From a virus, in IMG/VR virus record IMGVR_UViG_3300017745_000019, positions 1-40,955 of that record: 40,955 bases of DNA. One strand, 5' to 3'. Of this stretch, positions 2,833 through 11,286 are shown piece after piece. Within the stretch, counting starts at the first letter, position 1, and each line of letters opens with the position of its first letter. Under the pieces are notes generated by a model. The model searched no databases. It worked only from the letters and a program-made list of their open reading frames with translations, and had not been told where the DNA came from. Both the position numbers and the translations under genes were made by a program.

Positions 2833-2864
2833 TTTGGATTTTTGAAAAAAAAATTGTATATTAG
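2833..2864 (+). promoter_or_regulatory. Bacteroidota-type promoter
   Basis: TTTG at 2833-2836, a 20-base spacer, then TATATTAG at 2857-2864. This matches the known Bacteroidota -33/-7 promoter (TTTG, TAnnTTTG) and the other copies in this window with identical spacing. The predicted transcript would start near 2869-2871, just ahead of the ATG at 2884, and would serve the HTH and Mom-like genes. Confidence 0.75.
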
Positions 2865-2883
2865 TAATAAGTTACGAAAAAGT

Positions 2884-3087
2884 ATGGCATTAAGAGGTGA
2901 ATCACATCCACAACATAAATTAACTGAAGAGCAAGTTTACACAATCCGAAAACTATGGAAAGTAGGACATCGGAATGTTAGAGTATTGGCTAGAAACAAT
3001 GGTGTATCACCTGCTAATATTCGTAGAATTGTTAAGAATGAAACGTGGACTCATCTTTTAGTAGGTGAATTTGATAAATACCAATAA
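2884..3087 (+). CDS. Small helix-turn-helix DNA-binding protein
   Basis: A 67-residue protein with the pattern KLTEEQVYTIRKLW...VRVLARNNGVSPANIRRIVKNETW, which reads as a resolvase- or homing-endonuclease-associated helix-turn-helix that binds DNA. A longer frame could begin at a TTG at 2842, but that codon lies inside the promoter at 2833-2864 and upstream of the predicted transcript start, so the ATG at 2884 is preferred. Its stop overlaps the next start by one base. It may regulate the modification genes that follow, or be a remnant of a mobile-intron-type DNA-binding module; the sequence does not decide. Confidence 0.7.
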   Translation: MALRGESHPQHKLTEEQVYTIRKLWKVGHRNVRVLARNNGVSPANIRRIVKNETWTHLLVGEFDKYQ

Positions 3088-3845
3088 TGAAAGAAGTAGG
3101 AAAGAAGTATTGTGATACATCCAAATTATCAGTAAGAAAAATTTCCAAATCCGTAGCTAAAGATATAGTAATAAAAAACCACTATTCACATTTGTGGACT
3201 AAAGTATCTTACGCTATTGGTTTGTATGTTGATGATGATTCACATCAGTTCTTTAATACTTCAGAAAAACTTATAGGTGTAGCATGTTATGGAGACCCGA
3301 TTGGTAGATTGAGTGGACAATCCATAACTGAACTATTAGATAGAACAGAAGTTTTAGAATTAGTTCGATTATTTGTATTTGATGATTATGGTTCAAATAT
3401 AGAAAGTTGGTTCTTAGGTAAAACCTTTCAATGGTTAAGAGAGAACACACCACATATCAAAGGATTGATATCATATTCAGACCCTAAAGAAGGTCATAAC
3501 GGAACTATCTACCAAGCAACGAATTGGATTTATCAGGGTGATAAGTTACGATTCAACGATAGTTGGAGTTTTAAGTTTAGTGAAGATGGGGAGTGGCAGC
3601 ATGGGAGAACAATATTTCCATATTATGGAACTAACAATCCAACTAAGATACAAGAACAAATTGATAAACCATTTTGGATTCGTAAAGAACCTCGTAAACA
3701 TCGATATGTTTACATTCTTGCGAAGGGTGGTGAAAGAAGGAAACTGATTAAGAATCTAAAACATCCTATCTTACCATATCCAAAAAGTGAAAACGAAATA
3801 GAATTAGAAATTAGAAAATTAGAACCAATTGAAAGAAGAGGGTAA
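3087..3845 (+). CDS. Mom-like DNA-modification acyltransferase, copy 1
   Basis: A 252-residue protein with the layout I associate with the Mom family (phage Mu DNA adenine modification, GNAT-like fold): KNHYSH at 30-35, a GVACYGDP strand at 64-71, ELVRLFVFDD at 91-100 followed by NIES at 104-107, and the signature ISYSDPKEGHNGTIYQATNW at 128-147. Mu Mom converts adenine to a carbamoylmethylated base and protects the phage from restriction. Here that role is inferred. It aligns without gaps to the next gene through residue 151, so the two are tandem paralogs. The C-terminal half carries a Lys/Arg-rich stretch around RKEPRKHRYVYIL. Confidence 0.72.
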   Translation: MKEVGKKYCDTSKLSVRKISKSVAKDIVIKNHYSHLWTKVSYAIGLYVDDDSHQFFNTSEKLIGVACYGDPIGRLSGQSITELLDRTEVLELVRLFVFDDYGSNIESWFLGKTFQWLRENTPHIKGLISYSDPKEGHNGTIYQATNWIYQGDKLRFNDSWSFKFSEDGEWQHGRTIFPYYGTNNPTKIQEQIDKPFWIRKEPRKHRYVYILAKGGERRKLIKNLKHPILPYPKSENEIELEIRKLEPIERRG

Positions 3846-4632
3846 ACATTATTGTGATTCCACTAAAGTTAGTGTAGCGCCAATAGCTAAATCAATAGCA
3901 AAGGATATAATCGTTAAGAAACATTATACCCACGCATGGACATCTTGTCGATACGCATTGGGTGTATATTATCAAACTGATAATGTTGATGTATTTGGTA
4001 ACTCTCAGAAATTAATTGGTGTAGCAATCTACGGATTTCCAGTCGGAGCAAAAGCACCTACATCTGTATGTGAAGGATTAACAAAAGATAATATATTAGA
4101 ATTAACTCGTTTATACTTAGATGATGGTTATGGTTCTAATATTGAAAGTTGTGCATTGGGTAAAACATTCCAATGGATTAGAGATAACGATAAAAACATC
4201 AAAGTACTATTATCATATGCTGATAACGGACAGGGACACGTTGGTGGTATTTACAAAGCAACTAATTGGATATATCAGGGGTTATCAACTGATATAGCAC
4301 TTATGCCAAATTGGGGTATCTCACTATCTAAAGAACCATATGATTGGATTCATAGTAGAAGTGTTTATAATCTATGGGGTAGTGGTAACTTAGAACATCT
4401 TCGTAGAGAGATTGGAAAAGAAGGACATACTGAGTTTTGGCGAAGAGAAGAACCACCAAAACATAGATACATTCAAATCATATCTCAGAATAAAAAAGAA
4501 AAAAAGGATTTAATGAAAAGGTTAAAGCACGAAACTAAACCTTATCCTAAAACGGCATCTGATTATAATACAGATATCGTACACCATACAACATATGCGC
4601 CAGAAGAATCTAATGAGATAAATTTTTGGTAA
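3829..4632 (+). CDS. Mom-like DNA-modification acyltransferase, copy 2
   Basis: A 267-residue paralog of the preceding gene. KHYTH at 31-35, GVAIYGFPVG at 64-73, ELTRLYLDDG at 91-100, NIES at 104-107 and GHVGGIYKATNWIYQG at 136-151 fall at exactly the same residue numbers as in copy 1. The start is a TTG inside the end of copy 1 (17-base overlap). It is supported because the resulting N-terminus, MKEEGKHYCD, matches MKEVGKKYCD of copy 1. Divergence elsewhere (for example residue 70, and the insert after 151) suggests different target sequences or substrates, or a heteromeric enzyme. The tail after about residue 245 is unlike copy 1. Confidence 0.72.
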   Translation: MKEEGKHYCDSTKVSVAPIAKSIAKDIIVKKHYTHAWTSCRYALGVYYQTDNVDVFGNSQKLIGVAIYGFPVGAKAPTSVCEGLTKDNILELTRLYLDDGYGSNIESCALGKTFQWIRDNDKNIKVLLSYADNGQGHVGGIYKATNWIYQGLSTDIALMPNWGISLSKEPYDWIHSRSVYNLWGSGNLEHLRREIGKEGHTEFWRREEPPKHRYIQIISQNKKEKKDLMKRLKHETKPYPKTASDYNTDIVHHTTYAPEESNEINFW

Positions 4633-4659
4633 ATTGTTAATAACTTTTTACATAAAAAG

Positions 4660-4691
4660 TTTGGTAGTTACAAATAAATTTCGTATATTAG
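4660..4691 (+). promoter_or_regulatory. Bacteroidota-type promoter with AT-rich upstream element
   Basis: TTTG at 4660-4663, a 20-base spacer, TATATTAG at 4684-4691. The preceding bases 4634-4659 include TTGTTAATAAC and a perfect 8-base inverted repeat (AACTTTTT at 4642-4649, AAAAAGTT at 4654-4661). Three other promoters in the window carry related TTAACA/TTAACAT-type tracts, so this is probably an upstream element. It drives the 658-residue gene starting at 4717. Confidence 0.82.
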
Positions 4692-4716
4692 TAGTATAAT
4701 TGAAAATTGACAAGTT

Positions 4717-6693
4717 ATGAATGATATAGAAACCATAAAAGTTCCAGCGTCTAGAGTAGTTAGACGTAGAAAAACAATAAAACTACCCGAACATATCGAA
4801 TTAATACCTAATACACCATATATAAACTGGGAAAAACTTCATAGAGGTAGTTTAGATGTACTTAAAAATATGATTGATGAACTATGGACAGAGGAAAATT
4901 TAGATTTAGTAAATAGTGGTAAAATTGGTAATGTTAAAGATGAAATCAGATTAACATTAGCTGAGATTCCATATTTCACCAGAAACGAATGTTTGAATGG
5001 TACTATAGCTCCAAATGGTAGTATTATAAATTCATTCTATAATAGAGAACCATTTTTAGAACACACTATAACAAAGGTAAGTAAAATAGCTTATTTAATT
5101 AGATGTTTATATGGTATATCAGATTTTAACTTCCTTCCTGTTTCATTGATTTCAAATCCCAAAGATAATTCAAATATGGGTGTTCAAATGAAAAATGTTT
5201 TATTAGGTAAAGATAGGGGGCATTTTTTAACTGTTTTTAAAGAGGTAGTAACTGAAGAGGCTAAATTTGATAAGGAGTTTTGGAAATCCGTAAAATCTAA
5301 ATTACAACAACTAACTAATAAGGGTTACGCTACAATAGATTCATTAACTAATTTCCAAACACATGGTATGGATGAGATTATTTCTAAGTTAAGTGAAGTT
5401 AAGAGTACCTTTTCTTTGAAAGATATTTTAGATGATTTTTATTATAATAGAATATACACTCAAAAAGAAACTATTCAAATAAGATTAGAAACCATAGATA
5501 CTCATCGAAGTGAAATCGAATCAATCAACAATGGTGAAAACGATTGGAAAACTCACAATTATGCATTAACAAGATTAACAGATAGGTTAGTAGATAATTT
5601 ATACTTAGATTACAATCAGTTAAAGATTGATGAGATGTGTGCTAAATCTGAAGTATTGATGGGAGAACACCCATTCTTAAAAGGTAGAAGGAATTCAAAC
5701 TTCTCTGGATTTGAAACTGAACCACTAATGATATTAGCAGCAACTATTAATGATTCATTCGATAGACATTTGTATGAAAAACTATCAGGAATATCTGATA
5801 TACCCAAACGTGCAAAATCTTATATAGAGTGTATAGTTACTTCCAAAAAAGAAAATAGATACACTACTGAAAAATTTAAGAATCTACTTAAAGAATTAGA
5901 AATTGTAGCTAATATAACTGCTGATGATGGAGTTACTAATTTATGGGGTAGTTGGAATGATAACATTCTAAACGCATATGATGTTTGGAAAACTACATAC
6001 ATAGATAAAAAAACTACAAATAAATTCGATACTTTTAGAGTTAGTTCAATGGATATGGCTTTGATAATGTATAGAGCTATTAAATACATTATGAAAGAAT
6101 GTAAAGTTAGAGAATCTGGATTATCAGCTACTACAAAACAATTTATTGAGTGGTTTATAGATGAAACAAAAAACAATTCGTATGAGTTTGTTAAAGCTGT
6201 TGAAACTGCTGAAAACTCTTGGAAAGGTAAATTTGAAAAGGTGATTGGACCATATACTGAAAGGTTCATAAAGTATAAAATAGAATCAGCTGGTGAAGTT
6301 AAATCTGAGCATGTTTTAAAGAAAGAAAAGTTAAGAGCTTTAAGAACTAAAGCAGTTGATATAGGATTACCCACTAAATTTACAATGTACGATAGAAACA
6401 ATCAGGGGTGGTTTGTTACCGATATTGATTTAAACAATGGTAATGGATTAAATCTTTGTCATTATACATCAGCTACTAAAGCTGGTATGTACACTTCTGA
6501 AAATACAGATATGGGTCCTGCTAGAGATAATATCGATGTAGTTAAAGAAAAGATAATTCCTACTGATTATTTTTCACCCGATGGTAAGTTTATTAAGGAT
6601 TTTAAAAAAGAAGTAAACCAACCAACGGATATTGATTTACTCGAACCATGGATGAATACAGTGAAGTTTAGTAAATTTTATAAAAAAGATTAA
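4717..6693 (+). CDS. Large protein of unknown function
   Basis: A 658-residue protein that I do not recognise. The N-terminus is basic (VPASRVVRRRKTIKLPE, residues 9-25). The body is charged and mostly helical in character, with no signal peptide, membrane segment, P-loop or cysteine cluster that I can see. The last ~120 residues change style: NGNGLNLCHYTSATKAGMYT is Gly/Asn-rich and more beta-like, and could be a separate domain. It has its own strong promoter and sits between the Mom-like pair and a glycosyltransferase, so a part in DNA modification, its control or an anti-defence role is possible, but this is inference from position only. Base composition looks even more A/T-rich than the neighbouring polymerase. 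Confidence 0.85.
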   Translation: MNDIETIKVPASRVVRRRKTIKLPEHIELIPNTPYINWEKLHRGSLDVLKNMIDELWTEENLDLVNSGKIGNVKDEIRLTLAEIPYFTRNECLNGTIAPNGSIINSFYNREPFLEHTITKVSKIAYLIRCLYGISDFNFLPVSLISNPKDNSNMGVQMKNVLLGKDRGHFLTVFKEVVTEEAKFDKEFWKSVKSKLQQLTNKGYATIDSLTNFQTHGMDEIISKLSEVKSTFSLKDILDDFYYNRIYTQKETIQIRLETIDTHRSEIESINNGENDWKTHNYALTRLTDRLVDNLYLDYNQLKIDEMCAKSEVLMGEHPFLKGRRNSNFSGFETEPLMILAATINDSFDRHLYEKLSGISDIPKRAKSYIECIVTSKKENRYTTEKFKNLLKELEIVANITADDGVTNLWGSWNDNILNAYDVWKTTYIDKKTTNKFDTFRVSSMDMALIMYRAIKYIMKECKVRESGLSATTKQFIEWFIDETKNNSYEFVKAVETAENSWKGKFEKVIGPYTERFIKYKIESAGEVKSEHVLKKEKLRALRTKAVDIGLPTKFTMYDRNNQGWFVTDIDLNNGNGLNLCHYTSATKAGMYTSENTDMGPARDNIDVVKEKIIPTDYFSPDGKFIKDFKKEVNQPTDIDLLEPWMNTVKFSKFYKKD

Positions 6694-10590: not shown

Positions 10591-11286
10591 ATGAAGAAAG
10601 CAAGTCTTGAACAGTTCATTAACCGATACAATCTCGGTGGTGAAGTAGAATCGGTGAAGATAACATCATCCGATTCAGAAATGAAGGTAAGTTTTATCTC
10701 AGATGATAAAACATTACTTGGTGAAGTAACTTCGAAAGAAGGAGAATTCCCAAATGGTGAGTTTGGTGTTTATACAACATCACAACTTAAAGCACTCTTA
10801 GGAGTATTAGAATCATCTATGGATGTTGATTCAACAGAATCTTATATTAAGTTTTCTGATAAAGGAACTTCTGTAAACTATATGTTAGCAGATTTATCTG
10901 TTATTCCTGTAGTACCAGATTTAAAAGCAGTTCCACCGATGAATGTACAAATCACATTAGATGATGATTTTACATCTAAGTTCATCAAATCTAAAGGAGC
11001 TCTTAGTGAATCTGATACATTCACATTTGAGTGTAAAAATAATAATGGAGAGATTATCTTAGGGTACTCATCAATCAACACAAACAGAATTTCTATGAAA
11101 GTAGATTGTAAATGTGATGGAGATGTATCACCTATCTCATTCTCAGCTAAGTATTTGAAAGAAATCCTAAATGCGAATAGAGGTTCTAAATCAGCTAACC
11201 TACAGATTTCATCGCAAGGATTGGCACATATTGAGTTTGAGAAGGATAATTTAACATCTAAGTATTACTTAGTAGAGATAAAGTAA
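10591..11286 (+). CDS. 45: Sliding clamp (T4 gp45-like)
   Basis: A 231-residue protein (T4 gp45 is 228) with the gp45-type start KKASLEQFINRYNLGGEVESV, alternating beta strands through the body, and the ending LAHIEFEKDNLTSKYYLVEIK, typical of PCNA/gp45 clamps. It forms a ring on DNA that keeps the polymerase attached; in T4 it also activates late transcription. It sits immediately after the polymerase gene under its own promoter, and the clamp-loader genes follow. Confidence 0.9.
   Translation: MKKASLEQFINRYNLGGEVESVKITSSDSEMKVSFISDDKTLLGEVTSKEGEFPNGEFGVYTTSQLKALLGVLESSMDVDSTESYIKFSDKGTSVNYMLADLSVIPVVPDLKAVPPMNVQITLDDDFTSKFIKSKGALSESDTFTFECKNNNGEIILGYSSINTNRISMKVDCKCDGDVSPISFSAKYLKEILNANRGSKSANLQISSQGLAHIEFEKDNLTSKYYLVEIK

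Follow-up and report, generated by a model that had tools for sequence, protein, structure and literature searches.

Two overlapping, co-inherited Mom-family genes and a helix-turn-helix partner gene in a T4-like phage and its relatives

A stretch of viral DNA (IMG/VR record IMGVR_UViG_3300017745_000019, positions 1 to 40,955; the whole 40,955-nucleotide stretch is called the window below) carries two genes of the Mom family, A and B, which overlap each other and follow a small helix-turn-helix (HTH) gene. We postulate, with about an even chance of being right, that A and B are two Mom enzymes that would differ in site or donor preference and be produced in a coupled manner, with B as the basic enzyme and A as an addition to it. 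Several Moms per phage have already been reported (PMC7824862); the pair described here is overlapping, co-inherited, and accompanied by an HTH partner. We found no description of such a pair in the open-licence literature, and the Mom-bearing isolates that we examined mostly encode one copy.

Table 1. Positions of the HTH, A, and B genes and of selected codons and segments in the window
Feature	Position	Strand	Details	Evidence
Small HTH protein gene	2842..3087	+	Most conserved start probably ATG 2884, 67 aa	
Mom-family gene A	3087..3845	+	ATG, 252 aa	PF25680, PHROG 1384, 8bv8 matches; dN/dS
Codon of A Ser107	3405..3407	+	Mu Mom S124 equivalent	Alignment with native Mu Mom
Codon of A Asp132	3480..3482	+	Mu Mom D149 equivalent	Invariant in A
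Overlap of A 3' end (stop included) with B 5' end	3829..3845	+	17 nt	
TTG start of B	3829..3831	+	Inside A codons Pro-Ile-Glu (CCA ATT GAA)	
Mom-family gene B	3829..4632	+	TTG, 267 aa	PF25680, PHROG 1384, model match 8bv8; dN/dS
Codon of B Ser107	4147..4149	+	Mu Mom S124 equivalent	Alignment with native Mu Mom
Codon of B Asp132	4222..4224	+	Mu Mom D149 equivalent	Asn in 7/25 B representatives
B-specific C-terminal tail	4552..4629	+	Ends in Phe-Trp	Absent from A

The modification made by the Mom protein of phage Mu is N6-adenine methylcarbamoylation, and Mom is said to bind iron and acetyl-CoA, reportedly in work by Karambelkar et al. in 2020. To our knowledge, Mom is among the least understood DNA-modifying enzymes. 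Both window proteins match the Pfam Mom family (PF25680) across the whole domain, from profile position 2 to 202 of 202, with scores above the curated cutoff of 27.1 bits (A, E value of 3.5e-46 and 157.8 bits; B, 1.2e-45 and 156.1 bits). They also match PHROG 1384, annotated as "Mom-like DNA modification protein" (A, 1.7e-54; B, 1e-46). By sequence, A matches the crystal structure of Mu Mom (PDB 8bv8; E value of 1e-10). For B, a predicted model of only moderate confidence (mean pLDDT of 64) has 8bv8 as its best PDB match (2e-11), with GNAT acetyltransferases next. The AlphaFold model of A was poor (pLDDT of 44), probably because the alignment was too shallow, and the GNAT-like fold of Mu Mom is assigned to A through its sequence match only. 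An earlier note on this DNA had called the two proteins Mom-like paralogs and had asked for a profile search and structure prediction; profile, sequence, and structure matches agree with it, with Mom matches for both genes and GNAT matches for the B model.

The two proteins are 46% identical and 66% similar over 250 aa in a protein alignment (E value of 2e-79). The same note had the coordinates and frames of both open reading frames (ORFs) right, and the motifs that it named are all present at identical residue numbers within the gap-free alignment of residues 1 to 151. Its statement that the proteins diverge from there on was too strong, since A and B still align to about residue 242, with faster divergence and small gaps, in a segment that includes HRY, KH, and PYPK; the last 25 or so residues are unrelated. 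The genes are tandem paralogs, as proposed, but not gapless, since they overlap: B lies in the +1 frame relative to A and begins 17 nt before the end of the A stop codon.

The first possible start in frame B is the TTG, which follows a stop at 3820. The next candidate, a TTG at 3958, would delete an invariant His-Tyr. Among 29 distinct overlapping junctions in relatives found by IMG/VR searches, the overlap is 17 nt in 23, 14 nt in 5, and 11 nt in 1, and the TTG is kept in 28. It occurs in frame B because the near-invariant Pro-Ile of A (CCA ATT G) is read in that frame; in the sole exception (L127), A has Asn in place of Ile, so that B starts with ATG. Among 30 distinct pairs that do not overlap, 25 have ATG at the homologous codon, and in the other 5 the homologous start codon is itself replaced; in L032, the one that was read completely, there is an ATG immediately before it (ATG GGT AAA). 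Judged from these comparisons, the TTG is the real start of B, which extends the earlier argument from homology to copy 1; the accompanying remark that ATG-only calling would miss this start was correct. Fusion of A and B by frameshifting was considered and ruled out, given the stop 9 nt before the TTG in frame B and the separate genes of relatives.

Aligning native Mu Mom with 90 representatives placed Mu residues H58, Y59, R111, N121, E123, S124, D149, and Y159 at positions 32, 33, 94, 104, 106, 107, 132, and 142 of A, and the conserved residues of B have the same numbers. Both window proteins retain the equivalents of catalytic S124 and D149, as well as those of H58, Y59, R111, N121, and Y159, and share family and fold with Mu Mom. 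Structure 8bv8 is titled "inactive mutant S124A," which argues that activity depends on S124 and, by alignment, on Ser107 in A and B; D149 is presumably also an important residue of Mu Mom. Key residues are invariant in the 27 A representatives. Asp132 is replaced by Asn in 7 of the 25 B representatives, two of which come from lineages without A (L040 and L063). In 56 alignment columns, including H32, Y33, R94, N104, E106, S107, Y142, and H172, the same residue is invariant or nearly so in both clades, while 16 positions carry one fixed residue in A and another in B. These 16 showed no enrichment near catalytic residues (3 lie within 2 residues; permutation P = 0.58) and therefore do not indicate different chemistry.

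In a tree of 90 Moms, the 27 A and 25 B sequences form separate clades (support of 100/100 and 100/98, respectively). The best tree places 15 Moms of other viral contigs, mostly single-copy, beside B (100/96), which argues that the split is old. When 11 contigs of this sister group were searched whole, 8 had a single Mom match and 3 had further divergent or partial ones. Constraining A and B to one clade gave a tree 18 log units worse, which the AU test did not reject (P = 0.132). A and B thus appear to be old subfamilies or paralogs; a recent tandem duplication is unsupported by the best tree and unrejected by the AU test. Of the "duplicated pair" in the earlier note, the paralogy stands, but the two are not each other's closest relatives in the best tree.

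The two genes are tightly but not symmetrically linked. Each of the 86 distinct A genes with enough sequence behind it has B downstream, with no A found without B among them, and where enough sequence precedes B, 80 of 84 distinct B genes have A. Searches of 23 large contigs over their whole length found exactly these two Moms in 19 and B alone in 4. B occurs without A in five lineages (L027, L033, L040, L047, and L063), and five losses of A against none of B make a suggestive, though not strong, asymmetry. The B of L027 is 95.5% identical to that of the window, yet L027 has no A. At position 5001 of that contig, A is precisely missing and the HTH gene is joined to B by TAATG, which fits a deletion running from the 5' end of A to the similar 5' end of B.

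Median dN/dS against the window, with overlap codons removed, is 0.11 for A and 0.10 for B, indicating purifying selection on both genes; together with the intact residues, this rules out a pseudogene. The genes also reshuffle: L001 and L120 share 85% identity in A and 59% in B, L003 and L019 share 96% in B and 74% in A, and pairwise A and B distances correlate only loosely (Spearman coefficient of 0.37). From these comparisons, lineages exchange their A alleles and their B alleles independently of each other. A search with the single profile PF02086 found no adenine methylase in 8 relatives. Among genome contigs, only one relative was found, in the marine genome assembly TMED198.

The HTH gene has weak matches (Pfam HTH_38, E value of 0.007; PHROG 517, "HTH DNA binding protein," 4e-5), and its stop overlaps the A start by 1 nt (TAATG). 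It is adjacent to A at every one of 82 distinct A loci with enough flanking sequence, and at all 5 loci without A it directly precedes B. In five relatives (L120, L127, L146, L156, and L177), HTH, A, and B stay together though thioredoxin and/or NrdA is further away or missing, which weakens the view that the link is mere conservation of gene order. We also considered whether an HTH partner is a general feature of Moms and ruled this out, with none at 58 distinct loci of other Moms; Microbacterium phage BarnCat has an HTH gene upstream of its Mom, but the sequence is different.

In Mu, com overlaps the start of mom much as the small HTH gene overlaps the start of A here. The Mu system differs in having one Mom, the Com zinc finger, and a transposable phage, where the window has two Moms, an HTH partner, and a T4-like phage. 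Com is a zinc-finger translational activator (PMC6483171), a protein of another kind than the HTH product. The T4-like character of the window follows from its family B polymerase, clamp, clamp loaders, and ribonucleotide reductase. Its NrdA is closest to that of Flavobacterium phage immuto (59%), and the nearest Mom from an isolate is that of Polaribacter phage P12002L (AKG94227; 48% identity to A and 43% to B), which together make a Bacteroidota host likely. The P12002L Mom is a single copy beside a DNA methylase and has no such HTH partner within 400 nt upstream. The host is probably a marine member of the Bacteroidota, although the nearest polymerase, from a phage whose recorded host is Microcystis (49%), leaves this assignment uncertain.

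Control of mom in Mu is Dam-dependent. Such control cannot operate in the window phage, because there is no GATC upstream of the genes. Across the window, GATC occurs 0 times against 193 expected from trinucleotide counts, and CATG and CTAG occur at 0.24 and 0.22 of expectation. Fifty-six related contigs with A and B (658 kb) contain 19 GATC sites against 2,895 expected, and the five B-only contigs contain 1 against 212. Four other Mom phages (L231, L233, L235, and L237) have normal counts. Phages are already known to avoid restriction sites (PMC6286503), but here the purge is nearly complete in spite of two Mom genes. It suggests that GATC is a site that neither Mom protects and so narrows the likely site context of both.

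Several observations concern the surrounding DNA and Mom copy number in relatives. Directly downstream of B, positions 4717 to 6693 hold a 658-aa ORF that matches nothing significantly in Pfam or PHROG, and relatives carry different large ORFs at this site; the place between B and the DNA polymerase looks like a variable cargo site. In L097 (2585 to 4751), a 415-aa ORF and a DNA-methylase-like 304-aa ORF are inserted between A and B; the latter is a putative methylase on motifs read by eye (DPFAGRATRA and TCPPYYDIE), and the insert is possibly restriction-modification cargo. Three Mom matches each were found in two other marine contigs, L189 (9.9 kb) and L182, from TMED198. Two of those in L189 are neighbors (G042, 4295 to 4936 and 5097 to 5624). 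Carrying several Moms may be common among marine phages.

On the explanation to which we give even chances, A and B would both be catalytically competent Moms with a GNAT fold that modify adenine at N6 in the DNA of the phage itself and so block host nucleases. They would differ in sequence context or acyl donor and together cover more sites than one could. HTH, A, and B would form one translationally coupled cassette, with the HTH stop overlapping the A start and B starting inside the 3' end of A. A would be an addition to the basic enzyme, B, and the five lineages with B alone argue that B works without A. Close A's paired with distant B's, and the reverse, are as expected of separate enzymes. 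That A is never seen without B would also fit a dependence of A on B.

An unlikely but serious alternative is that A and B form a heterodimer, in which duplication let the subunits specialize, for example, one in catalysis and one in DNA recognition. Mu Mom (PHROG 1384 and 8bv8) is among the solved dimers that were matched by prediction, with TM and ipTM values of 0.88 each (PMC13232217), and overlapping genes and the strict linkage of A with B would suit a fixed ratio. An obligate heterodimer, in which neither gene should occur without the other, is argued against by the occurrence of B without A, twice with Asn132, and by the exchange of B alleles independently of A. All catalytic residues are, moreover, kept in both window copies.

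More speculatively, and quite improbably in our estimation, the two enzymes could share a target and differ in timing, the B tail holding B on the sliding clamp at the replication fork and tailless A modifying free DNA. All 25 B representatives end in FW, preceded by a variable linker, residues 261 to 267 are of low confidence in the predicted model, and A ends instead in KLEPI.... The window encodes a T4-type clamp (10591 to 11286) and clamp loader, and its DNA polymerase has a similar end, QFFGF; T4 alpha-glucosyltransferase copurifies with the clamp gp45, while the beta enzyme does not (PMC13216743). Against this, such a short aromatic end only weakly resembles clamp-binding peptides, and it recurs in few of the remaining window proteins. 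Aromatic ends comparable to that of B (FF, FYE, and FFG) occur in most other Moms of the listing. We think it highly improbable that A is a degenerate or redundant leftover copy of little effect retained by dosage: its apparently precise loss in L027 shows that it can be absent, but its dN/dS, its invariant key residues, and its presence at nearly all B loci speak against this.

Other phages also combine related DNA modifiers. Pseudomonas phage PA5oct has five momylating enzymes (PMC7824862) and so, like the window phage, has more than one Mom, although no overlapping conserved pair has been reported for it. Our Pfam search gave one subthreshold Mom match in PA5oct, which places its enzymes far from A and B. 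T4 encodes a pair of paralogous DNA glucosyltransferases, alpha and beta (PMC13216743), likewise two paralogous DNA modifiers in a T4-like setting and a precedent for paired enzymes; they belong to another family and act on another base (glucosyl-hydroxymethylcytosine), and the likeness is one of analogy only.

A three-part system can also be imagined, though we think it very unlikely, in which two Moms of different specificity are produced in constant proportion, regulated or steered by the HTH protein, and the B tail rides on the clamp at the replication fork. If true, it would give nearly complete adenine modification in more than one sequence context. For gene annotation, B is an example of a gene that would be shortened or overlooked if only ATG starts were called. 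For the Mom family, the analysis points to an old co-inherited pair in a large uncultured phage group, in which relatives with B alone serve as natural controls, and the pair offers a way to ask what sets the sequence specificity of Mom and whether phages use several Moms together for wider protection.
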